Source of the DNA: Planctomycetota bacterium
Lineage (GTDB): Bacteria; Planctomycetota; SZUA-567; JAKLDR01
Direction: 5' to 3'
NCBI GenBank assembly: GCA_022703445.1
Contig: JAKLDR010000002.1
Span: 124,001 to 188,000, forward strand
Length of the DNA stretch: 64,000 bases
Shown: positions 16,951 to 52,099 of the stretch, piece after piece
Numbering within the stretch: position 1 is the first letter of the stretch
How the letters are laid out: every line of letters starts with the position of its first letter
Made by a program: the position numbers and the translations under genes
The notes under the pieces: generated by a model
Told to the model about the DNA's origin: nothing
The model's input: only the letters and a program-made list of their open reading frames with translations
Databases searched by the model: none

Positions 16951-18510
16951 TCAATCGTACCCGCCGCCGCCGAACCGGCCGAGCTCCCTGGAATCGGCCT
17001 TGAACTCCGGGCCGAACTCCACGGTCCACTGCTTGAGCCCGCCGCCGATGTTGTGCCAGGCGTAGAAGGTCACCGTGGCCTTGTCCCCGGCCTTGACCAC
17101 CTTGGGGGCCTCGATCTGCTTGGCGGCCTCCTGGCGCTTGGCCTCGATGGCCGGGAACATGTTGAACTTGATGGCCAGGAAGTCGTCGGCCGATTTGCAG
17201 AGCTTCCAGCCGTCCTCGCTGGCCGGCGAGCTCAGGTGCACGTAGAGCGCGGCGGCGTTGACGTAGTCCTGGTCCTGCCACTTGGACCTGTCCTCGGCGG
17301 CGACCATCTTGCCGAACTGCTCCCCCCGGGATTCGTTGACCTTGAACGGATAGGTAACCAGTCCGGTGCGGTCCACACAGAGGTAGTGGCGGACCGGCAC
17401 GGCCGTGGTGTGGTAGAGCAGCACGCACCAGAAGCGCTGGTCTTTGAGCGGGTGCTCGATCTTCTGCTCGCCCAGGTGCGGGTTCTTGCTGCCGAGCGCG
17501 CTCATGGTGGGCTTGAACGGCTTGCCCCGGAGCCACATGTTGGCCTTCTCGTCGGGCTTGAGCGCCGCCACCGCCTCGGCGGCGAGCTTCTCCATCTCCT
17601 CGTCGGTGAGCAGCTTCTTGCCGGCGGGGTCCGGCTGGACCGGCTCCTCCCCCCGGAACGTAGGCGGCGCCGGCCGGGCCGCCTCGCCCGCTCGCACGGC
17701 GCGCACTGTCAACGGCACCCCGGCTCCGAGCACCACCGCGGCGCCCAGCGCGATCCCCGCGGCCAACTTGACTTTCATCCAGAACATGGCCTTCAAGACT
17801 CCTTCCGTCCATGCGGCAGCCTGGGCCGAGACCAGCCCGGCGGCGGCCGCCTTCCCCGCCGCGGCGAGCGCCGCAGCCTTGGCCGCCGAGATCGCGAAGG
17901 ACCCCGGCAGCGGTTCCAGTGAGTGATTGGCAAGCAACCCGGCCAGCAGGGCCGCGGAGCAGACCGCCCCGCGCGAGCCCAGCCGTTCGCGGAGCATCTC
18001 CCGGCCGCGCGCGAGCTGCGCCGAGAGCGTCCCGGTCGGAACCCCCAGCAGCGCGGCGACCTCCTCCTGGGTCCGACCCTCCATGTGATGTAGGATGAGC
18101 GGAGTCCGGTAGCGATCGGGCAGGCCGTCGAGCGCCCGGTCGAGCTCCGGCCGGACCGCGGCCCAGAGATCTTCACCGGACCGTCCGCGTTCGGTGACCA
18201 TGCCGGCCTCCTTCTCACGGGCCCTGCGGACCGCCGCAGCCTCCCGCGCCCGGAGCGAGACATGCCGGGCCACGCGGTGCAGCCAGCCGGCCAGCGAACG
18301 CTCGCCGTGCAGCGCCGCAGCCTTCCTGGCCAGGACCATGAAGACGGCCTGGGCGGCGTCCTCGGCGTCGGCCGCATCGCCCAGCAGGCGGCGGCAGGCG
18401 CCCAGGACCAGCGGGCCGTGGCGGCGGACCAGTTCCCCGAAGGCCGCCTCGCGACCGGAGGCCGTGAACTCGGCCAGCAGTTCCCCGTCACTGCGGATGG
18501 CTTCGACCAT
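16951..18510 (-). CDS. ECF sigma factor fused to transmembrane and outer sensor domain (copy 1)
   Basis: Protein of 519 residues from ATG 18510 (AGGAGG 13 bases upstream; ATGs at 18522 and 18537 are alternatives). Sigma region 2 at about 20-85 ('RRLLGDAADAEDAAQAVFMV'), sigma region 4 at about 125-180 ('RTQEEVAALLGVPTGTLSAQ'). An Ala-rich hinge (about 200-240, 'GLVSAQAAAWTEGVLKAMF') and one membrane helix (about 243-265, 'KLAAGIALGAAVVLGAGVP') follow, then about 250 residues predicted outside the cytoplasm, of no family I know. This architecture is typical of Planctomycetota ECF factors and would let an outer signal act on a tethered sigma factor. The hinge-TM part is almost identical to copy 2. 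Confidence 0.88.
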   Translation of the reverse strand: MVEAIRSDGELLAEFTASGREAAFGELVRRHGPLVLGACRRLLGDAADAEDAAQAVFMVLARKAAALHGERSLAGWLHRVARHVSLRAREAAAVRRAREKEAGMVTERGRSGEDLWAAVRPELDRALDGLPDRYRTPLILHHMEGRTQEEVAALLGVPTGTLSAQLARGREMLRERLGSRGAVCSAALLAGLLANHSLEPLPGSFAISAAKAAALAAAGKAAAAGLVSAQAAAWTEGVLKAMFWMKVKLAAGIALGAAVVLGAGVPLTVRAVRAGEAARPAPPTFRGEEPVQPDPAGKKLLTDEEMEKLAAEAVAALKPDEKANMWLRGKPFKPTMSALGSKNPHLGEQKIEHPLKDQRFWCVLLYHTTAVPVRHYLCVDRTGLVTYPFKVNESRGEQFGKMVAAEDRSKWQDQDYVNAAALYVHLSSPASEDGWKLCKSADDFLAIKFNMFPAIEAKRQEAAKQIEAPKVVKAGDKATVTFYAWHNIGGGLKQWTVEFGPEFKADSRELGRFGGGGYD

Positions 18511-18577
18511 GGTTCCGGGCATCCCTCCTGCTGACATTATCTCCGCCGCGCCCCGGAATCGATGCACGAAAAAGACC

Positions 18578-18612
18578 AAAAAAAGCGCGGGGCGGGCCTG
18601 GGCCCGCCCCGC
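18578..18612 (-). terminator. Rho-independent terminator after 18634-19611 gene
   Basis: On the minus strand, perfect stem GCGGGGCGGGCC / GGCCCGCCCCGC with a two-base loop, then GCTTTTTTTGG. It ends the transcript of the gene whose stop is at 18634 before the sigma fusion copy 1 begins. Confidence 0.9.
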
Positions 18613-18633
18613 GGATGCGGTCTGCTTAGGCTG

Positions 18634-19611
18634 TCAGTTGGCTTCCGGCTGGCCGCCGGGGACGTTCAGGCCGCCCTCGCCGGCCTCGACCCGCCGGGTG
18701 AAGGCCTTGATCTTCTCCTGGAGCTCCCCGCTGGTTGCGGCGATCTTGCTGCGGAGATACGGCAGGGCATTGCGGCCCATGATCAGCAAATCCCTCTCGG
18801 CCGCGGCGCGCACCGCCGGGTCCGGGTCGTTGAGCTTCAGGGACTGGCAGATCGGGCGCATGCCGGCCCGGAGGTTCTCGCTCTCCTCGACCAGCCTGAA
18901 GACGCCATCCTTGCCCTCGAAGCCCACGAGCGCATCGATCGAGCCGGAGTTCCTCATCTTGGCCGGGCCGCCGGCAGCGCCGCCGTCCACCTTGAGGGCG
19001 GCCCTGACGGTGATGCTCCCATCCTTCTCGGTCACCTCGAACTCGGCTGGCTTGATGTCGAACTTGAAGAAGCCGTCCTGGGCCAGCTCCTTGCGGAGCA
19101 GGCAGTAGCCGTGGGCGGCGGCGCGGGCGGCGTCCTTGTCCTTGGCGCGCAGCGCCTTCGCGCAGAATCCCTGGAGGTCGGCGGCGCTCTTCATGAGCGT
19201 CACCTCGCGCTTGCCGTCCTTGCCGGCCTCGGCGACGGCGAAGAGGTTGGCGGTCCCCAGCGGCTCGGGCGCCATCCGGGCCACCGGGAACTGCGCGAAG
19301 CGCATGGTGAGGAACTGGTGATTGGGGAAGGCGGCCTTGACCGCCGGATCGGCCGATTCCGCGAGCTCGGGCAGTTCAACGCCGCCCTTGACGTTGTCCT
19401 TCAGCCAGGCCTGGACGGCGTCCTTGGCGGGGCCAGCCTTTGCCGGGCTGTCCTTGGCGGTGTCGCCCCTGCCCGTCTCTCCGGGCCGGGTGACGAGTTC
19501 GACCTCCTCGCCTCCCCGGGCGACGCGGATCTCCAGGGGAGCGCTGCTCCCAAGAACCGCGGCGGCCAGGGCCATCCCTGCAGCCTGCGCCATCCTCTTC
19601 ATCCCGAACAT
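18634..19611 (-). CDS. Secreted or membrane-anchored protein of unknown function with HEAT-like tail
   Basis: Protein of 325 residues from ATG 19611 (AAGGAG ten bases upstream). Starts MFGMKRMAQAAGMALAAAVL, a signal-like helix that resembles the 'KAMFWMKVKLAAGIALGAAV' hinge of the sigma fusions, as if a sensor half had been detached from its sigma factor. The middle, with 'LMKSAADLQGFCAKALRAKD' and 'ARAAAHGYCLLRKELAQDGF', is not recognised. The end (about 255-310), 'LNDPDPAVRAAAERDLLIMG', is a HEAT-like unit. It lies between two sigma-TM-sensor genes on the same strand, and has its own terminator. Confidence 0.65.
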   Translation of the reverse strand: MFGMKRMAQAAGMALAAAVLGSSAPLEIRVARGGEEVELVTRPGETGRGDTAKDSPAKAGPAKDAVQAWLKDNVKGGVELPELAESADPAVKAAFPNHQFLTMRFAQFPVARMAPEPLGTANLFAVAEAGKDGKREVTLMKSAADLQGFCAKALRAKDKDAARAAAHGYCLLRKELAQDGFFKFDIKPAEFEVTEKDGSITVRAALKVDGGAAGGPAKMRNSGSIDALVGFEGKDGVFRLVEESENLRAGMRPICQSLKLNDPDPAVRAAAERDLLIMGRNALPYLRSKIAATSGELQEKIKAFTRRVEAGEGGLNVPGGQPEAN

Positions 19612-19651
19612 TGTCTGCGCACTCCTTCCCTTCAAGAGCCTCTTCTGGCCT

Positions 19652-20410
19652 TCACATCGTGGGCGTGGGGCCGGGGAGTGGCCGCGGAGCGGGCTTGGGC
19701 CCGGGCACGACACCGCCGCCTCCACCACCGCCACCACCGCCACTACCTCCGCCACCACCCACTCCGCCGCCTCCGCCACCCGACCAGGCGGCGGAGGGTG
19801 CCGGCCTGACCCGTACCTCAATCTCCGCACTGCCGGTGAGCGCCCTGCCCTTCCAGCCGGACTCCTTCTCGCCGAGCTTGGGCTCGTAGACGATCTGGAG
19901 ATGGTACTTGCCAACCGGCAGGGTCTTCAAGGCCGTGGCGCCGCCCTCGGCCTCCTCGAAGCGCCACTTGGCGTCGAACTCGATTGGGCAGTTGCCGTGG
20001 CCGCCGCGGGGCAGGCGCACGGTGGCGGCCGAGGCGCTCGCGTCCTTGGCGAGCTGGGCGGCATCGTACCTGGCCACGAGGACCTTGCCACCGTCCTTGG
20101 GAGTGATCAGGACCCGGAAGTCGGGCATGCTGAGCGCGGCATGCACCATGGTCAGGTCGGTCGTGCCGGCGTTGTTCAGGTACAGAGCGAACTTGAGGCC
20201 CTCGCCCTCGAAGTACACGTTCCGGAGCGTCGGCGTGTCGCCCCGGCCGGTGGGCACCAGGCCGAGCTGCAGCCCATCGACGGCCTCGCCCCAGTTGAAC
20301 GGGTCGGGCGCCTTGGCCCCCGCGGGCTTGTTGCCGCCGTCGCCGGCCCAGGCAGCTGTGGCCATGGCGCCGGCCAGAGCGAAGCCCGCGCAGATCGTCT
20401 TGAGTTTCAT
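19652..20410 (-). CDS. Secreted protein with poly-glycine tail, unknown function
   Basis: Protein of 252 residues; ATG 20410 sits seven bases after AGGAGG (a GTG two codons upstream is also possible). Signal peptide 'MKLKTICAGFALAGAMATAA', cut near AWAGD. Residues 25-190 look like a beta-sandwich: 'LKFALYLNNAGTTDLTMVH', 'LPVGKYHLQIVYEP'. The latter resembles 'LAAGKYRLTVEFDA' in the sensor half of the adjacent sigma fusion copy 2, so the two may share a fold. The end is glycine blocks with single Ser or Val, then a Pro-rich tail. The gene follows copy 2 by 37 bases on the same strand and is probably in its operon. Confidence 0.7.
   Translation of the reverse strand: MKLKTICAGFALAGAMATAAWAGDGGNKPAGAKAPDPFNWGEAVDGLQLGLVPTGRGDTPTLRNVYFEGEGLKFALYLNNAGTTDLTMVHAALSMPDFRVLITPKDGGKVLVARYDAAQLAKDASASAATVRLPRGGHGNCPIEFDAKWRFEEAEGGATALKTLPVGKYHLQIVYEPKLGEKESGWKGRALTGSAEIEVRVRPAPSAAWSGGGGGGVGGGGGSGGGGGGGGGGVVPGPKPAPRPLPGPTPTM
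19710..19782. repeat. CCR/CCN triplet run encoding poly-glycine
   Basis: Run of CCG, CCA, CCT and CCC triplets on the plus strand, read as GGN glycine codons by the minus-strand gene. The mixed codons suggest an old, partly scrambled simple repeat rather than one likely to slip often. Confidence 0.8.
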
Positions 20411-20447
20411 CGTCACTCCTCCTGGTTGGCTGGCTCCGTCGGTGCGG

Positions 20448-22130
20448 TCAGTCCGCCGGCTGCGGCGGACCGATGAAGGCCGGCGCCTTCTTCATCATTA
20501 CCGGCGCGCCCTGGCCTTCGTTGAGGAAGGAGAAGCCGGCGTCGCCCTGCCCTCCCCCGTAGGGAACCTTGCCGTCGGCGTCCGCGGACACGGTGATGCT
20601 CACGGACATCCCGGGCTTGGCCGTCGGCGCCTTGAAGGTGAACGTGAAGTTCCTGCCGTCGTCGGTCACGCCCCTGGGGGTCTCCTTGACCAGGTCCTCC
20701 GGCCTGAAGGTCTTCCAGAAGTCGTCGTTCGCGCTCACCTTCTTCTGGAAGGCGGCGCGCTCCAGCGCGTAGGCTCGGGCGGCCTCCAGGGCCTTCCTCT
20801 CGCCGGCCTGCTCGGCGGCGGCGTCGACCGCCTGGACCTCGAAATCCACGGGGCCGAAGCGGGCCTTGCCGGCGTCGCCGGCGTCGAACTCCACGGTCAG
20901 GCGGTACTTGCCGGCCGCCAGGGGCAGCCCCACCTTCTCCCGTCCCCCGGCCGCGTCCCGCCAGAAACTGTTGCCGGAGCCGGGGGCCTGCGCCGTGGCC
21001 TCAAACGCCTCGCCGGCGGCGAGCTTCCTGGCGACCAGTTGGGTGGGCATTTTCGGCAGAAGCACCTCGGGGTCGTGGCCGGAGCGCAGCACGGCCTTGG
21101 TCCCGACGTTCTCGACGACAAAGCTCATCCCGTAGAGGGTGGTGCTGCCCATGAACGACTGGAACTCGAGATCAACCTCCTTGTTGGAGGCGTTCTTGTA
21201 GCTGGCCACGAAGGCCAGCGCCTCCCGGCTGCCGAACGGGACCTTGGCCGGGCGGACCGAAATCTCCAGCCCGCCGATGACCGCCGGCTTGGGGCCCGCG
21301 TCCTTGCGCGCCTCTTCGGCCCGCACGGCGTGAATCGCCGCCGGCACGCCGGCGCCGAGGACCACCGCGGCGCCCAGCGCTATTCCCGCGGCCAGCTTGA
21401 CCTTCATCCAGAACATGGCCTTCAAGACTCCTTCCGTCAGAGCGGCGGCCTGGGCCGAGACGAGCCCGGCGGCCGCCGCCTTCCCGGCCGCGGCCAGCGC
21501 CGCGGCCTTGACCGTGGATGCGGCCAGTGCCCCGGGCACCGCCGCCGAGGATTTCTCAAGCATCAGCGCGGCCAGCGCCGCCGCGGAGAGCGACACGCCC
21601 CGGCGCACCAGCCTCTCCCGGAGCAGCTCCCGGGCCCGGGCCAGCTGTCCGGAGACCGTCCCCTTGGTCCAGCCCAGCTCAGCGGCCGCCTCCTCGTTGG
21701 TCCGGCCCTGGAGGTAACAGAGCACCAGCGGCTGGCGATACTTCCCGGGCAGCCTGGCCAGCTCCTCATCCAGGGCCGGCCGGAGGATGTCCCAGGACCC
21801 GTCAGCGCTCGGTCTGGCCTCGGTCATGGCTGCGGCCCGCCTTTCGTGCTCGTCCCGGACGGCGGCGGCGGCCCGGGCCTTGAGGGCCACGCGGACGGCC
21901 ACGCCGTAGAGCCAGCTGCCCACCGAACCGCCCTTGCGCAGTTCGCCGGCCTTGCGGGCCAGGACCATGAAGGACGCCTGGAAGACGTCCTCGGCCCCGT
22001 GCGGGTCGCCCAGCAGCCGGGCGGCCACGCCCATGACCATGGGGCCGTGGCGTCGCACGAGCTCCTCGAAGGCGGTCTGGTCTCCGGCCGAGGCGAAGCG
22101 CTCCAGAAGCTGTCCGTCGCTGGGGGGCAT
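20448..22130 (-). CDS. ECF sigma factor fused to transmembrane and outer sensor domain (copy 2)
   Basis: Protein of 560 residues; ATG 22130 follows AGGGAGAA. Sigma region 2 at about 15-80 ('RLLGDPHGAEDVFQASFMVL'), region 4 at about 120-175 ('EEAAAELGWTKGTVSGQLAR'). Hinge 'GLVSAQAAALTEGVLKAMF' and one membrane helix near 245-265, nearly identical to copy 1 at both protein and DNA level (21335-21500 against 17700-17890). The outer part (about 275-560) holds beta-sandwich-like sequence, 'FGSREALAFVASYKNASN' and 'KYRLTVEFDAGDAGKARFGP', and is unrelated to the outer part of copy 1. Probably reads an envelope signal. Next gene downstream encodes a secreted protein with a similar sandwich motif. Confidence 0.88.
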   Translation of the reverse strand: MPPSDGQLLERFASAGDQTAFEELVRRHGPMVMGVAARLLGDPHGAEDVFQASFMVLARKAGELRKGGSVGSWLYGVAVRVALKARAAAAVRDEHERRAAAMTEARPSADGSWDILRPALDEELARLPGKYRQPLVLCYLQGRTNEEAAAELGWTKGTVSGQLARARELLRERLVRRGVSLSAAALAALMLEKSSAAVPGALAASTVKAAALAAAGKAAAAGLVSAQAAALTEGVLKAMFWMKVKLAAGIALGAAVVLGAGVPAAIHAVRAEEARKDAGPKPAVIGGLEISVRPAKVPFGSREALAFVASYKNASNKEVDLEFQSFMGSTTLYGMSFVVENVGTKAVLRSGHDPEVLLPKMPTQLVARKLAAGEAFEATAQAPGSGNSFWRDAAGGREKVGLPLAAGKYRLTVEFDAGDAGKARFGPVDFEVQAVDAAAEQAGERKALEAARAYALERAAFQKKVSANDDFWKTFRPEDLVKETPRGVTDDGRNFTFTFKAPTAKPGMSVSITVSADADGKVPYGGGQGDAGFSFLNEGQGAPVMMKKAPAFIGPPQPAD

Positions 22131-23100: not shown

Positions 23101-23784
23101 TCACTTCCGGGCGTAGGGTCGGCCGGAGGCCTCGGCGCTCTGGCCCTTGGCCAGCTCGCGGGTCGTCTCGCCGATCTCGACCGCCAGGCGCCCCTCGGCG
23201 ACGGTGAGCTTGCCGCGCACCAGTTCGGCCCGGGGGCCCTCCCAGCGCCAGGGCTTGCGGAAGCCGGCGACCGATCCGGCGGCCAGCTCCACGCGGGTGC
23301 CGTCGCAGAGGACGACCGCCCCGTCCTTGGGCGCGATGACGTAGCCGCCCTGCCGGACGGCTCCGCCGGAGAGGGACTCGATCGGCGAGGGACCGACGGC
23401 GGCGGCGAAAGCCCCGGCCAGCACCAGCACCACGACCAGGGCGGAGATCAGCAGGCTCCGGCGCCGCCGGGCGGCGCGCCGGGCGATCTCGCGGAGCGCG
23501 GCCAGCCGTTCGGTCCGGCCGGCGTTCTCCAGTTCCTCGACGAGCTGGGCGGGCGGGGCGTCCTTCTCGCCGGGCTCGACCGCCAGGCACTCGGCCAGCA
23601 GCCGGGCCTCGCCCAGCGACAGGCCCAGCATGCGGTCGGCGGCGGCCAGGCGCAGGTAGTGCGCCCGGCACTTCTCACACTCCTCGATGTGCCGCTCCAG
23701 CAGGGGCAGCCGCTCCGGGGCCAGTTCCCAGTCCAGGAGCGCGGAGAACTCCTCCCCGTGCGGGCAGGGGATGGAGGTGCTCAC
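23101..23784 (-). CDS. Zinc-finger anti-sigma factor with FecR-like outer part
   Basis: Protein of 227 residues starting at GTG 23784, which overlaps the stop of the sigma gene (GTGA). The N-terminal ZAS domain has the H-x3-C-x2-C motif HIEECEKC near residue 32, with an earlier CPH near residue 7. One membrane helix near 110-132 ('SLLISALVVVLVLAGAFAAA'). The outer part (about 140-225), 'VIAPKDGAVVLCDGTRVELA', resembles FecR-type domains in which a surface signal controls the bound sigma factor. It should hold the sigma factor encoded just upstream inactive at the membrane. Confidence 0.8.
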   Translation of the reverse strand: MSTSIPCPHGEEFSALLDWELAPERLPLLERHIEECEKCRAHYLRLAAADRMLGLSLGEARLLAECLAVEPGEKDAPPAQLVEELENAGRTERLAALREIARRAARRRRSLLISALVVVLVLAGAFAAAVGPSPIESLSGGAVRQGGYVIAPKDGAVVLCDGTRVELAAGSVAGFRKPWRWEGPRAELVRGKLTVAEGRLAVEIGETTRELAKGQSAEASGRPYARK

Positions 23785-24422
23785 AGCTCCGCCTCCGGGG
23801 CGGCCTCGGCCAGGATCTCAGCGAAGCGGTCGCGCTCGTGCCTGAGGATCTGGCCCACCGAGGCCATGGGGATGCCCTCGGCGTCGGCGATCTCGCGGTA
23901 CTTCTTCTTGGCGTGGTAGCGGAAGGTCAGCACCCGCTTCTGGCGCTCGCCCAGGGCCTCGGTGAAGTCGGCGGCCAGGCGGTCGACCTCCTCGCGGGTC
24001 AGGTGCGGGGCGCGGTCGCGGGCCGAGGGCGGGCGGGCCAGGATGGCCGTGGCTATGGTCTTGCCGCCGAGCTGGACCTCGGCCTCCAGCGAGCAGGTGA
24101 AGGTGTGGTACTTGGCGCGCAGCAGGCCCAGAGCCCGCCAGGCGGCCAGCGCGCGGATGGAGGGCCCCAGCAGGCCGGGGCGCTCCAGGGAACGCAGCCA
24201 CTGGAAGTCGTCGGCGGCCAGGCGCCCGAAGACCTCAACCGCCACCTCGTCGAGATCGCCGGGGCTGAACGGCTCGCGGTAGCGGTCGAAGACGGTCCGG
24301 GCCACCGCCCGCGCCGCCGGGGCGTGGGCGGCGACCAGCGCAGACCAGCCATCCGACTGGTGGGCCAGCACGGCCTTGAGCATCTCGGCGTCGTTGGTCG
24401 GTGCCTTATCGGGCATGGGCAT
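23781..24422 (-). CDS. ECF-type RNA polymerase sigma factor
   Basis: Protein of 213 residues from ATG 24422 (a second ATG at 24416; the frame stays open upstream through a word repeat, which I exclude). Region 2 is divergent ('FSPGDLDEVAVEVFGRLAAD', about 55-75), region 4 near 150-200 is clearer: 'LGERQKRVLTFRYHAKKKYR' and 'EIADAEGIPMASVGQILRHE', a helix-turn-helix with the usual spacing. The overlapping downstream anti-sigma factor strongly supports the call. Unlike the other three ECF proteins in the window it is free-standing. Confidence 0.75.
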   Translation of the reverse strand: MPMPDKAPTNDAEMLKAVLAHQSDGWSALVAAHAPAARAVARTVFDRYREPFSPGDLDEVAVEVFGRLAADDFQWLRSLERPGLLGPSIRALAAWRALGLLRAKYHTFTCSLEAEVQLGGKTIATAILARPPSARDRAPHLTREEVDRLAADFTEALGERQKRVLTFRYHAKKKYREIADAEGIPMASVGQILRHERDRFAEILAEAAPEAEL

Positions 24423-24460
24423 ATTGTCTTTAGCGCCGGCCGGGGATGCAACGGCAGAAC

Positions 24461-24558
24461 TTGGTTGCGGGTTGTGGGTTGTCGGTTGCTGGAAGGAAAG
24501 GCCGAAGGCGGATCCTGGGTTGGCTACCGGTAACCCGCAACCAGCAACTCGCAACCGC
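24461..24558. repeat. Tandem-word hairpin, GTTGCGG family
   Basis: Left arm 24464-24491 (GGTTGCGGGTTGTGGGTTGT) and right arm 24530-24558 (AACCCGCAACCAGCAACTCG), near reverse complements made of GGTTG(C/T) words. It lies in the gap 24423-24560 upstream of the sigma gene and ends three bases from the stop codon of the oxidoreductase gene. Nothing else is seen in the gap. Confidence 0.8.
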
Positions 24559-32717: not shown

Positions 32718-35181
32718 TCCTGACGTCCATCCGCACGATGCCGGTGTAGGTCGAGGCCCAGAGGCGGCTGCCGTCGGTGTTGGCGCTCAGGAAGAGCGGG
32801 AAGAACGCCTCCTTCAGGTAGTAGCGCGGCTTGGGCTCGCCGCCGGCGGTTTCGCAGAGGTAGTTGCCCTGGGTCTTGTCCTGGTAGCCCTGGGGCTTCT
32901 CGCGGAGCTGCTTGAAGAGCCACTGCGGCGCCGCGGCTGCGGGCACGTCCTCGGGCTTGGCCGCCGCCCAGGCCTTGCCGTCGAACCTGGCGGCCTCGGC
33001 CTGTAGGGGCACGGCATGCCGTGCCCCTACGCCATCGCCGACGAGCTCGACCGGCAGCAGTCCGAGCGGTGCTTGGCCGCCGGCGACCAGGATGTTGCCG
33101 TCCTTGTCCTTCGCGATGCGCTCGATCTTGCGGTCCTTGAGCGCCACCTGAAGCTCGAAGCGCCCCGTGGTGGTGTCGAGCCTGGTGACCAGCCCCCGGT
33201 CGGAGCCAACGTAGACGTAGCGGCCGTCGTCGAGGAGCGCGGTGGCTCGCCAGTACCAGCGGAACTCGGGCGCGGCGAGCTGCTTCCAGGAGCCGGCGGC
33301 CTCGTCGAAGAAGCCGACACAGCTCTCGGTCACCGCCCAGTGGGTCTCGCCGGCCAGGAAGGAGCCCAGCACCAGGTCATGGCCGATGGCCTCCCAGAGT
33401 TGGTCCTTCAGGGAGTTGCCGCTGGCGGTGAGCTGCCCGGTGGAGATGTTGAGCACCATGGGCTGCTCGCCCTGGAGGTCGAGCTGCTCCGGGTGGTGCT
33501 CGAACTTCGCGGCCCAGGCCGCGCCGGCATCGGCGCGCGAGGCCACCTGGTCGAGACACGGCCAGTAGCCGCCGAAGTACTGCTTGGGCACGAGCCTAGT
33601 CATCGCGAAGGCCCGCTTCGGCCCGACGGTCAGGTTCTCGACGAACTGCGGGACGATCGTGTCGGCGCCGTGGCAGCCGTCCTGGCCGCAGATCAGCCGC
33701 TGGCCAAGTTCCTCGAGCGCCAGTGGCAGCGAGGTCCACTTGCCGGCCTTCTCGTCGTAGCGCAGCAGGCCGAAGCCGCCCGTGTGGAACTCCAGGCGCT
33801 TGGTGGTGGTCATTCCCGGGTGGGCGCTCTTGGCCGCGTACTTGCCCTCCATGGTCACCGCCCAGACCGCGCCGTCGGCGGCCACGGTCAGGCACGAGAC
33901 CGGCCTGGCCGGCCGGCCGTCGACCTCCGCCCAGGTCTGCCACTTGCGCGCGGCCAGGTCGAAGCGGGCCAGGCCGCCGCCGGCCGGGGCGGCGTCGCCC
34001 GCCGCGGCCAGCGGCTCGGAGGCGATCCAGGCCGCGGAGTCGGTGAGCAGGAGCTGCGCGTACCGGCCGCGGACCTCCTCGGGCGGCTCCAGCGCCTCGG
34101 TCTTGCCGGTGGCCGGGTCGTACTCGGCCAGGCCCTTGGGAGTCAGGAAGTAGAGCTTGCCGCCGCGGGCCGTCTGCTCGAAGCCGTTCTCGGCGATCTT
34201 GGTCCACTTGGCAGCCTTGAGGTCCAGCTCGTAGATGTCGCCGAAGGAGCCGGCGTAGAGCCGCCCGGCGAGCTCGACGGGATTAGTGATGAAGTGCGCG
34301 GTGCGCCGCTCCCAGTGCGGCGGCCAGATGCCGTTGTCCACCGCCTTGGCGATGCGCGCGGCGGTGGGCAGGGCGGGGAACCGGTTTCCTCCGGCGCGAT
34401 CCTTCTCGATGCTGCTGTAGCGCAGTGTGCCGGTATCGCCAATGAACCAGAAGTCATGGTTGTTGACGGCGATGACCCGGACGTACTTGCACTTGGGCAA
34501 CAGTGAAACGTCCTGGATTGTCTCGGTGCCGACGCTGAGCATGGCCGTTCCGCCGCGGTGTATGAGCCACAGCTCCCTGCCGTCGCTGGCCAGCTGGTAG
34601 ACGAGCTTGTCCGGCAGCCCCTCGGCCCGGCCGTAGCTCTTCACCAGCTTCTTCCCGGCCAGGTCGAACTGGAGGATCTCGTTGTCGGCGGCGACCCACA
34701 GGAACTTCTCGTCGCGGGTCCAGGCGGTGAAGCGGCGCTTGAAGTCGTAGGGCCGGCCGACGACCGCTTCGGCGCCCTTCAGGTCCGGCGGCGTCGCGGA
34801 GTTGACCGTCCCGGGCATGACCACGCAGGCCAGGCAGCGCATCCGCCGCCAGAACTCGTGGCCGGCGTTGACCCGCTCGTCGACGTAGGCCACCGCCCTG
34901 AGCTTGTCGCCCTCGGCGACGCCGTAGATCTCCGGGGTCTGGCCGTGCATGACCGAGCCGAGGCTCTTGCCGCGCTCGTCCATGACCAGCTCGTAGGCCT
35001 TGCCATCGGCGGTTGTGAAGGTCGCCGCCGCGGGCACGCCGGCCTGGCGCTTGGTGACGTTGACCTTGCCGGTGAACTTGGCGGTTCCGGCCGGCGCCTC
35101 GCCTGCCAGTGCGGAGGAGAAGAGCAGTCCGGCCAGGACAGTCGCGATCCCCGGCAACGCCGGGCGCCTGAGCTTACGCAT
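32704..35181 (-). CDS. Large secreted beta-propeller protein
   Basis: Protein of 825 residues; ATG 35181 follows AAGGAGGGG and yields a signal peptide cut near SALAGEA. Residues about 30-120 form a small beta domain ('FTGKVNVTKRQAGVPAAATF'). From about 150 to the end are repeated propeller blades, for example 'FLWVAADNEILQFDLAGKKL', 'GGKLYFLTPKGLAEYDPATG', 'DGRYVYVGSDRGLVTRLDTT', 'KDKDGNILVAGGQAPLGLLP', in the style of two-component-sensor or NHL propellers. Residues about 718-727 (VGARHAVPLQ) are encoded by an inserted 28-base palindrome. The C-terminus is encoded by a word repeat. Probably an envelope binding protein; no catalytic motif. Confidence 0.75.
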   Translation of the reverse strand: MRKLRRPALPGIATVLAGLLFSSALAGEAPAGTAKFTGKVNVTKRQAGVPAAATFTTADGKAYELVMDERGKSLGSVMHGQTPEIYGVAEGDKLRAVAYVDERVNAGHEFWRRMRCLACVVMPGTVNSATPPDLKGAEAVVGRPYDFKRRFTAWTRDEKFLWVAADNEILQFDLAGKKLVKSYGRAEGLPDKLVYQLASDGRELWLIHRGGTAMLSVGTETIQDVSLLPKCKYVRVIAVNNHDFWFIGDTGTLRYSSIEKDRAGGNRFPALPTAARIAKAVDNGIWPPHWERRTAHFITNPVELAGRLYAGSFGDIYELDLKAAKWTKIAENGFEQTARGGKLYFLTPKGLAEYDPATGKTEALEPPEEVRGRYAQLLLTDSAAWIASEPLAAAGDAAPAGGGLARFDLAARKWQTWAEVDGRPARPVSCLTVAADGAVWAVTMEGKYAAKSAHPGMTTTKRLEFHTGGFGLLRYDEKAGKWTSLPLALEELGQRLICGQDGCHGADTIVPQFVENLTVGPKRAFAMTRLVPKQYFGGYWPCLDQVASRADAGAAWAAKFEHHPEQLDLQGEQPMVLNISTGQLTASGNSLKDQLWEAIGHDLVLGSFLAGETHWAVTESCVGFFDEAAGSWKQLAAPEFRWYWRATALLDDGRYVYVGSDRGLVTRLDTTTGRFELQVALKDRKIERIAKDKDGNILVAGGQAPLGLLPVELVGDGVGARHAVPLQAEAARFDGKAWAAAKPEDVPAAAAPQWLFKQLREKPQGYQDKTQGNYLCETAGGEPKPRYYLKEAFFPLFLSANTDGSRLWASTYTGIVRMDVRKNAE
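33003..33030. repeat. Perfect 28-base palindrome inside a gene
   Basis: GTAGGGGCACGGCA followed at once by its exact reverse complement. It is read in frame by the propeller gene without a stop. Repeats of the GTAGGGGC...GCCCCTAC kind are known from many environmental genomes as dispersed sequences. Confidence 0.9.
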
Positions 35182-48991: not shown

Positions 48992-51900
48992 CTACTTGAT
49001 CTCCTGCAACCCGGCGGTCTTGGGGTCGAACCGGAGCACGTGGACCTGGTTGTAGCAGTTCACCGCCCAGACCAGCTTGCGGTTGGGGTCGTACATCAGC
49101 CCCAGGTCCACGTTGAAGGCCCCCTTGCCGATCGGATTGGCGCCGGCCAGTTCCGCGCCTAGCCACGCGTTCTTCTCGCAGTCGTAGACCAGCGACAGCA
49201 GCTTGCCGCCCTCGCCCGTGGCCTGCCCGCCGAGCATGACCATGTCGCAGTCGGCCAGGTAGGTGGCCTCGCGGGCGTTGACCCTGGCCTTCTCCCGGCC
49301 GGCGGCCTCCAGCCACTTCACCTCGCCGGTCTTCGGGTCGCAGGCCATGACGTCGCCGCCGTGCTCCTTGTCGGCCGAGGAGAAGAGCAGCAGCCGGGCA
49401 CGCTTGGTGTCCCAGACCATCCCGTGACAGTCCGCGCTGACCGCCGGGAGCTTGCCCTTCACGCCCACGGGGCTCCAGGTCCGGGCCTTGGGGTCCAGCA
49501 GAAAGAGGCCGGTCTCGTAGCGCGCCCTCTCTGCCCAGGCCATCACGCCCTGGGGTGTGCCGCAGAGCGTGGTGACGTACATGTTCGGGAGGAATGGGCT
49601 GGGCTTGTCGTTCCGGGACCACCTCCCGGCGGCCGGATCGAAGAAGTACGTGAAGGCCTTGGCCGCATAGATCAGCGTCTTGGTCTCCGGTTCGTAGCCG
49701 GTGGTCTTGTAGGTGTGCCCGCTGATCCAGGGGCTCCCCGTCAGGCTCCACTCGCCGGGGGAGAAGTTCCCGTTGAGCACCTGCTCGTTGGTGGTGCAGA
49801 AGTCGAGCGGCATCTCCGGGGCGAAGGGTATGGACCAGCGGCCGGTCTTGACATCGTAGACCTGGGGCGCCGTTCCGCTGTAGTAGCAGTGCCCGCCGGA
49901 GAAGCGCATGATCAGGTCCCGCTCCGGCGAGTAGATCGCGGTGCCCCAGCCGGCGCCCATCTGGGGCTGCCGGGGAGCCGGCCGGGCGGTCCAGGTGTTG
50001 GCCGGCAGCGCCTTCAGCTCGGCCTCGACCTTGGCGGGATCGGCCGCCGGGGCGCCCTTGTACCACTCCGGGTCGTAGGTCTCCTTGCGGCGCTCGACCG
50101 CGCCGGGCTTGGCGCCGAGCCTCTCCGCGCCGGCGGCGTCGGGCCGGGAGACATCCAGGCGGCACAGCCACGTGTTGGCGGAAAGCACCAGCACCGAGTC
50201 ATCCGCCCCGGCCGCCGCCCGGATGGCGCCGCCGCGGGCGAGGTCGGCGCCGCTCGGCGGGGCGTTCTTATCCCAGGAGGCGATGAACTCCCACCGGTCC
50301 GCGGCGGTGTCATAGGTCCAGGCCTCGAGCGGTCGGTAGCGATACAGGGCCGGATAGTAGCCGACGCCGGAGTCATAGCCCCAGCCGCCCAGGAGCAGAA
50401 CCTTCTTGGCGACGGGCAGCCAGACCAGCGCGTGGCCGCCGCGCGGCGACGGGGACAGGGCCGGCTTCCGCTCCTCCCACTTCCGCCCGTCGAAGGTCCA
50501 GGTGTCGGCCAGCAGAGCGTTGAGCGCGTCGCCGCCGAAGAGCACGGCCCGCCCGCTGACCGGGTCGTAGACCAGCGGCGAGAGCGCCCGCTGGGGCGGC
50601 TGCCGGTCGGGCTTGAGCGCCTCCCAGACGTTGGCGGCCGGGTCGTAGGTCCAGGTGCCGGGATCGCCGCGCTCGGTCTGGACATTGGCGCCGCCGAAGA
50701 GCACGACCTTCCGGATGTTCGGCATGTAGCACATCGAGCCCCAGTAGAGCGTCCCGCCGACCCCGCCGGGATGGCTGGCCGGGGCCAGGTCCTTCCAGAC
50801 CCGCGCCGCCGGGTCGTAGCTGAAGGTGCTGCCCATGACGTAGAAGAAGACCCGCTTGGAATCCGGGTCGAGCGCGTACTGGTTGCCGTACTTGACGCCC
50901 GTGTACCTGGTCACATTGGGCCGGCAGTTGCCCTCCGCGTCGGTGAGCCCCCAGCTCTCGCTCTTCCAGGCGGGGGCCTTGCAGTCGCCGAACTGCGGGC
51001 CCCAGGCCTTGCCCGGAGGCAGCCAGTTCTCCCACTGACCGGCAGCCAGGTCCAGGGCCAGCTCGTCGAAGGGATGGGGCTTGGGGTAGTACGAGGAACC
51101 GATGCTGCCGCCCAGGGCCATGAAGCGCCCGAGCCCCGGCTCGTAGACGAGCGGCGCGTCGCCCCGGCCGCAGTCGGCCTTCTCGAGCTTGACCCACTGG
51201 TTGGAGGCCGGCGCCGGAGCCGCCGGACCGGCCGGAGCGGCCGGAGCGGTTGCTCGCGGCGCGGGCGCCGCCGGCTCACCCGCGGCCAGCTGCGCCGCCA
51301 GGAGTCCGCCGCTGCCGGCCGCCGCGACCGCCGCCACAATCGCGGCAACCAGTTTGATCTTGGCCATGACCATCGCCTTCATGGTGCCCTCCGCCAATGA
51401 AACCGCCGAGGCCGATGCCGCGCCGGCCCCCAGGCCCTTGAGCGTTGCCAGCAATGCGGCCGGCGCCTCCGCCGCACCGGCCCCAGTCGCAAGCATGCCG
51501 AACAGCGCCGTTGCCGGAACGGTGACGCCACGTCGCGCCAGGAGTCCGCGCATCCGCTCCAGGGCTCTGGACAGAGTCATGGAGACCCGGCTGCGGCCCC
51601 AGCCCAGTTCCGCGGCGGCCTCGGCCTCCGAGCGGCCGTAACAGCAGCGCAGCAGCAGCACCTCGCGCTGCGCCTCCGGCAGCGCGGCCAGGGCCGCATC
51701 CAGCTGCGGCCGGACCAGGGCCCACGAACCTTCTGCGGAAACGGTCTCAGGACTGCGCATGCCAGCCGCCTCCCTCTCTCTCCGGACGCGCCGGGCTGTC
51801 TCGCGGCGGAGGTTCAGCGCCACGCTGCGGGCCACCGTGTAGAGCCAGCCGGCCAGGACCGTGGAAGGCGGCAGGCCGCGCGCCTTGCGGGCCAGCACCA

Positions 51901-52099
51901 GGAAGGTCGCCTGGGCGGCGTCCTCGGCGGAATGCGCTTCGCCGAGCAGGCGCAGACAGGTCGAGTAGACGCGCCCCGCGTGCCGGTCGACCAGCGCGGC
52001 GAAGGCCTGCTGGCTATCCTTGAGGGTGTATTCGGCAAGAAGCTCACGGTCGGTCATCAGCGCCCGTCCAGGACCCGTCAAGGCCGTGTCCTTCATCAT
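48992..52099 (-). CDS. ECF sigma factor fused to transmembrane helix and Kelch-like propeller
   Basis: Protein of 1035 residues from ATG 52099 (ATG 52057, MTDRELL, is an alternative that starts at the normal ECF N-terminus). Sigma region 2 near 30-95 ('RLLGEAHSAEDAAQATFLVL'), region 4 near 135-190 ('EAEAAAELGWGRSRVSMTLS'). Hinge 'SAVSLAEGTMKAMVMAKIKL' and one helix near 258-285, then an Ala/Pro linker to 315. The rest (about 720 residues) is a Kelch-type beta-propeller with VLFGG, LLLGGWGY, MLGGQATG and related blades. This outer part is a paralogue of the secreted protein at 60260-62608. Divergent from the GntR regulator of the glycan locus. Confidence 0.9.
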   Translation of the reverse strand: MMKDTALTGPGRALMTDRELLAEYTLKDSQQAFAALVDRHAGRVYSTCLRLLGEAHSAEDAAQATFLVLARKARGLPPSTVLAGWLYTVARSVALNLRRETARRVRREREAAGMRSPETVSAEGSWALVRPQLDAALAALPEAQREVLLLRCCYGRSEAEAAAELGWGRSRVSMTLSRALERMRGLLARRGVTVPATALFGMLATGAGAAEAPAALLATLKGLGAGAASASAVSLAEGTMKAMVMAKIKLVAAIVAAVAAAGSGGLLAAQLAAGEPAAPAPRATAPAAPAGPAAPAPASNQWVKLEKADCGRGDAPLVYEPGLGRFMALGGSIGSSYYPKPHPFDELALDLAAGQWENWLPPGKAWGPQFGDCKAPAWKSESWGLTDAEGNCRPNVTRYTGVKYGNQYALDPDSKRVFFYVMGSTFSYDPAARVWKDLAPASHPGGVGGTLYWGSMCYMPNIRKVVLFGGANVQTERGDPGTWTYDPAANVWEALKPDRQPPQRALSPLVYDPVSGRAVLFGGDALNALLADTWTFDGRKWEERKPALSPSPRGGHALVWLPVAKKVLLLGGWGYDSGVGYYPALYRYRPLEAWTYDTAADRWEFIASWDKNAPPSGADLARGGAIRAAAGADDSVLVLSANTWLCRLDVSRPDAAGAERLGAKPGAVERRKETYDPEWYKGAPAADPAKVEAELKALPANTWTARPAPRQPQMGAGWGTAIYSPERDLIMRFSGGHCYYSGTAPQVYDVKTGRWSIPFAPEMPLDFCTTNEQVLNGNFSPGEWSLTGSPWISGHTYKTTGYEPETKTLIYAAKAFTYFFDPAAGRWSRNDKPSPFLPNMYVTTLCGTPQGVMAWAERARYETGLFLLDPKARTWSPVGVKGKLPAVSADCHGMVWDTKRARLLLFSSADKEHGGDVMACDPKTGEVKWLEAAGREKARVNAREATYLADCDMVMLGGQATGEGGKLLSLVYDCEKNAWLGAELAGANPIGKGAFNVDLGLMYDPNRKLVWAVNCYNQVHVLRFDPKTAGLQEIK

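Follow-up and report, generated by a model that had tools for sequence, protein, structure and literature searches.

An in-frame start signal at the hinge of planctomycete ECF sigma factor fusions points to a second, exported product

We analysed a family of planctomycete genes in which an extracytoplasmic function (ECF) sigma factor is fused, through a short hinge and a hydrophobic segment, to a C-terminal sensor, represented by three fusions (A, B and C) in 64,000 nucleotides (nt) of a Planctomycetota bacterium (GenBank assembly GCA_022703445.1, contig JAKLDR010000002.1, positions 124,001 to 188,000 of the forward strand; hereafter the window, whose first letter is position 1). The hinge contains a Shine–Dalgarno (SD) sequence followed by an in-frame ATG, and selection acts on these start signals at the nucleotide level, beyond the protein sequence that they encode. 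Judging from the sequence signals described below, we put at roughly 0.78 the probability that this second in-frame start makes each gene encode two proteins, a long form in which sigma is tethered to the sensor and a short form that is the exported sensor.

Results

Three fusions with a start signal at the hinge

Fusions A, B and C all lie on the minus strand. Fusion A (16951..18579, an intact open reading frame) has ECF sigma regions 2 and 4 (Pfam Sigma70_r2, 2.6e-12, and Sigma70_r4_2, 8.9e-13), the hinge, a transmembrane (TM) or signal segment and a C-terminal domain of unknown family. Fusion B (20448..22130, from its intact open reading frame and Pfam) is built in the same way with a C-terminal domain like those of L004, L010, L012 and L014, whilst fusion C (48992..52099, from Pfam) carries a Kelch beta-propeller (Kelch, 8.9e-22, in addition to sigma). 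The sensors of L004, L010, L012 and L014 match one another by BLASTP, and that of B was placed with them by eye and alignment, its own BLASTP giving no match. Sigma70_r2 and Sigma70_r4_2 in Pfam, and TIGR02937, scored above cut-off in all three proteins; by these matches they are ECF sigma factors, with a predicted role in core RNA polymerase binding and transcription. An AlphaFold model of B had a mean predicted local distance difference test (pLDDT) score of 50, with the sigma part alone usable, and was left out of the analysis.

In A, the internal SD sequence AAGGAG, encoded as GAA GGA G, is at 17799..17804 (minus strand; duplex energy -7.6 kcal/mol), with the proposed internal start ATG (MFWMKVK...) 11 nt downstream at 17785..17787 (minus). 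The same AAGGAG-11 nt-ATG arrangement occurs in B (SD at 21428..21433, ATG of MFWMKVK... at 21414..21416, both minus). In C the SD is GGAGG, within GCG GAG GGC ACC ATG, at 51388..51392 (minus; -10.0 kcal/mol), and the proposed ATG (MKAMVMAKIK...) follows 5 nt on at 51380..51382 (minus). A sequence-only reading of the window had drawn attention to the hinge and membrane helix of A and B and had claimed a related hinge in C, which is indeed present (AEGTMKAMVMAKIKL).

The hinge is not peculiar to the A/B pair. The source genome (5.99 Mb, 314 contigs, 81% complete) has at least 20 fusions that carry this motif, and a sigma plus hinge profile found matches in 50 of the 60 related genomes searched. 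Alignment of fusions across planctomycetes, which the sequence-only reading had suggested, bore out its expectation of a shared hinge, as most of 80 relatives from other Planctomycetota genomes (loci taken from named records of this phylum, chiefly of Gemmataceae, Isosphaeraceae, Singulisphaera and Schlesneria) carry it as well. The consensus is roughly VSA.VAAL(T/A)EGV.KAM(F/L).(T/A)K.K, followed by a hydrophobic stretch. A search of plasmids returned a single match, to sigma only.

Selection on the nucleotides of the start site

At the DNA level the hinge follows the codon pattern xAA GGA Gxx xxx AAx xCC ATG, in which GAA GGA, AAA GGA and CAA GGA recur although GGA, GAA and AAA are minor codons in the fusion genes (~10% of the codons for Gly, 17% of those for Glu and 8% of those for Lys, respectively). 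The residue preceding the hinge Gly varies (E, K, Q, D, N or H) whilst GGAG and ATG persist, and a purine SD is retained with other residues too (GGG GAG GTA in L094, GAA AGG GGA in L071). Measured against the codon-position background across 86 fusions, the Kullback–Leibler divergence of wobble positions between -45 and +35 was at most 0.26 bits except at -16 (1.43), at -13 (1.21), at the G of the ATG and, more weakly, at Lys-codon positions. Positions -16 and -13, occupied by A in 57 and 53 of the 86 fusions respectively, are exactly the two wobble bases of the AAGGAG that stands 11 nt ahead of the in-frame ATG. A synonymous test using the codon usage of each gene itself ranked the SD columns first and second of 276 (z = 13.1 and 8.9; 95th percentile 4.6).

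This constraint extends to distant members of the family. Amongst eight representatives with less than 45% sigma identity, A was found at -16 in six and at -13 in seven, and the ATG in all eight. The synonymous test was repeated on 37 validation fusions of greater distance, where the Gly column scored highest of all (z = 5.9) and the preceding codon reached 3.0; Met occurred at the position or one codon earlier in 31 of the 37, and a strong SD ahead of it in 25, compared with a motif background of 6%. The suggestion of strong selection on the hinge was right, but much of this selection acts on the mRNA, at the SD wobble bases, rather than on a protein hinge. The hinge peptide appears to be conserved largely because it spells an SD and a start.

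Signatures of translation initiation

A TM segment was detected in 126 fusions. In 99 of them an in-frame ATG stands where that segment begins, and in 79 of these 99 it is preceded by an SD duplex of -6 kcal/mol or lower. Taking all ATGs of the pre-TM zone, without choosing the best of each, the median SD duplex energy was -6.9, whereas the remaining in-frame ATGs of these genes had a median of -3.1 (p = 3e-22). The hinge SD equals in strength that of the sigma's own start (-7.6 versus -7.1). The sigma starts examined mostly carry an SD; a planctomycete studied previously ranked among species with few SD genes (PMC5397173). In 40-nt windows the predicted folding energy of the mRNA weakens from between -12 and -15 kcal/mol (about -14) to about -6.5 kcal/mol precisely where the hinge ATG stands. 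Synonymous shuffles reproduce only part of this dip in structure, leaving an excess of 7-8 standard deviations (sd).

Ser/Thr kinases with a TM segment, taken from six of the same genomes, served as a control. An ATG near the TM segment was present in 6 of 58 kinases and was accompanied by an SD in 3, compared with 79 of the 126 fusions (p = 1e-14), and these TM kinases had no dip in mRNA structure.

Similar signals accompany unrelated hinge peptides in other families, where a GGAGG-type SD precedes ATG and a Lys codon (L169, L187, L189 and L193; for example GGGGAGGAACTCCT-ATG AAG in L169 and GGGAGGAACGGCG-ATG AAG in L187). Within the validation set, L169, L171, L176, L180 and L187 share a different hinge (GGTAMKIT and similar) with a GGAGG-type SD and ATG AAG. 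The existence of such different-hinge families suggests that the internal start arose, or was retained, in several separate lineages.

A signal-peptide-like segment, also found at the start of sigma-free genes

Read from the hinge ATG, the segment comprises an n-region of the form M(F/L)(W/L)xKxK, a hydrophobic core and AxA, so that the 'membrane segment' reads as a Sec-type signal peptide with n, h and c regions. In 42 of 85 fusions an AxA|[DEQ]-like site lies 20-52 residues after the hinge Met, compared with 207 of 1134 control windows (p = 5e-10). It had also been proposed that the sigma half might be cut off at the hinge; in that form this found no support, the signal-peptidase-like site following the membrane segment rather than preceding it.

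Three genes without sigma begin at the hinge site. One lies in the window between A and B (18634..19611, minus strand), and its 5' architecture is that of the hinge (GGGAAGGAG-N10-ATG TTC GGG ATG AAG), with a product whose N-terminus is signal-peptide-like (MFGMKRMAQAAGMALAAAVLGSSAP). The other two, L283 and L291, were the sigma-free genes yielded by a hinge-profile search of 29 genomes of the class. L283 starts with ACG AAA GGA GCG CTC AAG ATG ATG TTC TGG, its profile match being limited to the hinge part (E 1.3e-7), and L291 starts with MKTMCWMKVRLA. The same search of 29 genomes found no case of a sigma gene with a separate downstream sensor gene.

L283 and L291 come from one related genome, are exported-looking, and have the fusion-type signal peptide and start in common; by eye their mature parts are alike, perhaps of a glycosidase-like family.

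Other features of the window

No sigma match was found in 18580-20430. In this interval, next to the gene at 18634..19611, a second sigma-free, exported-looking protein is encoded (19652..20416, minus strand), and its domain is by BLASTP also the sensor of fusion L005 (29% over 154 amino acids, E 1.7e-11), with one motif found in L003. A short sigma-like gene at 23781-24554 (minus) overlaps a gene at 23101-23784 (minus) whose product, from the open reading frames and by eye, has an HxxxCxxC-like start and one TM segment; together they probably form a conventional pair of sigma and anti-sigma factor.

A perfect 28-bp palindrome, GTAGGGGCACGGCATGCCGTGCCCCTAC, is present at 33003-33030 and occurs in nine places in all (seven exact, two with one mismatch), with copies in the source genome at C29, C34, C77, C244, C271, C275, C280 and C289. 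It is found in frame at different sites within sigma fusions, where it encodes VGARHAVPL; in L006 this peptide separates sigma regions 2 and 4, in L020 it follows the TM segment, and diverged copies stand in the linker right before the hinge SD in L003, L006 and L007. The palindrome looks like a small mobile element that tolerates insertion into coding sequence.

Discussion

A proposed second product from one gene

From the start signals we infer use of the hinge start by ribosomes, export of the short form and a role for it. Translation from the first codon would give the long form, a cytoplasmic ECF sigma joined via the hydrophobic segment to a sensor outside. Initiation at the hinge, with its xAAGGAG, 11-nt spacer, ATG and immediate signal peptide, would give the sensor without sigma, which may be exported and perhaps freed by signal peptidase. 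The likeliest role of such a sigma-free sensor would be to share a ligand, or an oligomer, with its tethered counterpart, which would set the number of occupied sensors that signal to sigma. It might do so by competing or co-assembling with the tethered form, or it might be the source of the exported domain, with the tethered sigma reporting on the state of that domain.

Several observations weigh against this proposal. By energy, 47 of the 126 TM fusions lack a strong SD and ATG, including L018, L019 and L021 of the source genome; with about a third of TM fusions thus lacking a strong internal site, the arrangement is common but not universal. When SD energy was compared with shuffles that kept the amino acids fixed the effect was modest (-7.23 versus -6.33, sd 0.23), since codons for E-G are SD-like in any case. 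A spacing of 11 nt is towards the upper limit of what is usual, a few other columns are codon-biased as well (z 5-8), and half of the fusions have no exact AxA|[DEQ]-like motif. The p-values are uncorrected for shared ancestry and treat sequences as independent, apart from the thinning at <45% identity; composition and motif, rather than a trained predictor, were the basis for calling the signal peptide; and the anti-SD was assumed to be canonical because the assembly has no 16S gene.

Alternative explanations

The explanation that best survives alongside the second start, and is compatible with it, is that the similarity of A and B reflects gene conversion or recombination, with the hinge a joint at which sensors are swapped; we regard this as possible, though doubtful. 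The near-identity of hinge and membrane helix noted from the letters alone holds, with a maximal-scoring segment in A (17713..17886, minus) that is 90% identical in DNA to one in B (21342..21515, minus). The tract spans 173 nt at 90.2% identity, dropping on both sides to 63.5% in the remaining aligned part, and encodes 52 of 56 identical residues in hinge plus TM compared with 117 of 218 in the sigma part. The sensor halves of A and B are, as had also been noted, unrelated, with no BLASTP match at E<=1e-3. The paralogs stand in tandem about 3.6 kb apart, and 4-fold sites are identical at 27 of 38 positions (71%) within the tract against 48 of 87 (55%) outside and ~46% by chance. This is the comparison of synonymous change along A and B proposed at the outset, and its excess, though in the direction of conversion, is not significant (p = 0.11); the identity of the tract does not lie chiefly at silent sites. 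No close relative carrying both A and B was found. Local gene conversion between these tandem paralogs is plausible but unproven. For a joint speaks that hinge-sharing fusions differ in their sensors and that the hinge heads sigma-free genes too. A recombination joint should, however, keep every base, yet nearby wobble bases are near background, and the nucleotides conserved family-wide are the SD and ATG rather than one continuous stretch; for these reasons, and with the synonymous excess between A and B not significant, a recombination joint was set aside as the main explanation.

A less likely explanation is that the hinge start is an unused fossil, the fusions having arisen when a sigma gene was read through into a neighbouring, originally independent gene for an exported protein. 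Sigma-free genes with the same start do exist, which makes it probable that the segment was formerly the beginning of a gene. An SD no longer in use should have decayed, however, whilst the SD wobble bases and the low mRNA structure persist at sigma identities down to 45%, with synonymous sites elsewhere near background. One fusion, L024 (C93 of the source genome), is decayed, with an in-frame stop in sigma and another soon after the TM segment; in it the SD core of the hinge is indeed broken and the hinge Met has become Ile.

It is more improbable still that the SD-like sequence acts as a pause for elongating ribosomes before the membrane segment, in aid of targeting or folding, rather than as a start. 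SD-like elements that are enriched early in Escherichia coli membrane-protein genes have been tied to targeting pauses (PMC4359368), and the hinge site directly precedes a hydrophobic segment. Those pauses, however, fall at codons 16-60, and none was seen at codons 16-36 when at least 80 residues precede the first TM segment (PMC4359368), whereas the hinge site is ~240 codons into the gene. A pause requires neither an ATG at a fixed distance nor low mRNA structure, both of which are conserved at the hinge, and sigma-free genes start at this very site. The TM kinases of the same genomes, with a comparably long cytoplasmic part, show nothing similar, and on this negative control we rejected SD-like pausing as the cause.

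Equally improbable is that the hinge and TM segment are conserved as protein, as a signalling hinge or protease site, with the DNA passive. The KxK after the Met and the AALTEG-like run are conserved at the protein level, and a protein role may coexist with the second start. Protein function cannot, however, predict synonymous codons, and it is precisely the pair of SD wobble bases that is fixed; the amino acid ahead of Gly is free to change as long as its codon preserves the SD; and unrelated hinge peptides converge on SD plus ATG. Protein conservation as the sole explanation is thus largely refuted, and a protease or hinge function was rejected as the main cause of conservation, the constraint falling on the SD wobble bases. 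Programmed frameshifting was set aside, as the frame continues and inspection of the aligned hinge DNA, with no dedicated scan, revealed no conserved slippery heptamer.

Relation to known systems

ECF sigma factors with C-terminal extensions, abundant in Gemmataceae, have been reviewed (PMC8103513), and a further paper covers WD40-bearing planctomycete ones as well as detergent-soluble fractions (PMC8567305). The fusions analysed here have the same sigma regions 2 and 4 and an extra C-terminal domain, but the papers on such extensions that we found describe one product per gene, whereas here an internal start would apparently yield the extension a second time, as an exported protein in its own right. 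In our literature search no description of an internal start in an ECF fusion came to light, although key classification papers lay outside that search and this absence is no proof.

Long and short proteins from one frame are otherwise familiar. The short form of CheA is made from an internal start within the frame of the long protein. In mycobacteriophage Ms6, a second endolysin is embedded in lysA as an in-frame nested gene (PMC3111421). The hinge resembles both in this respect but differs in that its inner start would make the signal peptide of an exported domain and that it is found again and again among the many paralogs of a family spread over a phylum. Anti-sigma factors of the membrane-anchored RseA type likewise couple an extracytoplasmic sensor, through the membrane, to the control of an ECF sigma; in the fusions the sensor is instead joined to sigma itself, which would be tethered without an anti-sigma, and a sigma-free sensor is predicted as co-product. 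As in Sec signal peptides, a positive n-region, a hydrophobic core and AxA before an acidic or polar residue adjoin an SD and start codon, but in a product begun at the upstream start this segment comes only after ~240 residues of cytoplasmic protein and has to serve as a membrane segment.

Implications

In planctomycetes, ECF sigma factors that bear large extracytoplasmic extensions number in the dozens. We lean, by a small margin over even odds, towards the broader view that the TM-linked ECF sigmas throughout the Planctomycetota form a class of one-gene, dual-product signalling systems, in which one mRNA would also yield an exported, sigma-free copy of the sensor, the ratio of tethered to free sensor would be built into the gene, and the cassette of SD, ATG and signal peptide would be the joint at which new exported domains come under a tethered sigma. 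A conserved peptide motif can in this way be the shadow of a ribosome-binding site. If each gene does yield the sensor alone as well, current annotations probably miss a second, exported protein across a large gene family, and tethering, competition and shared sensors in these sigma factors would be open to direct testing.

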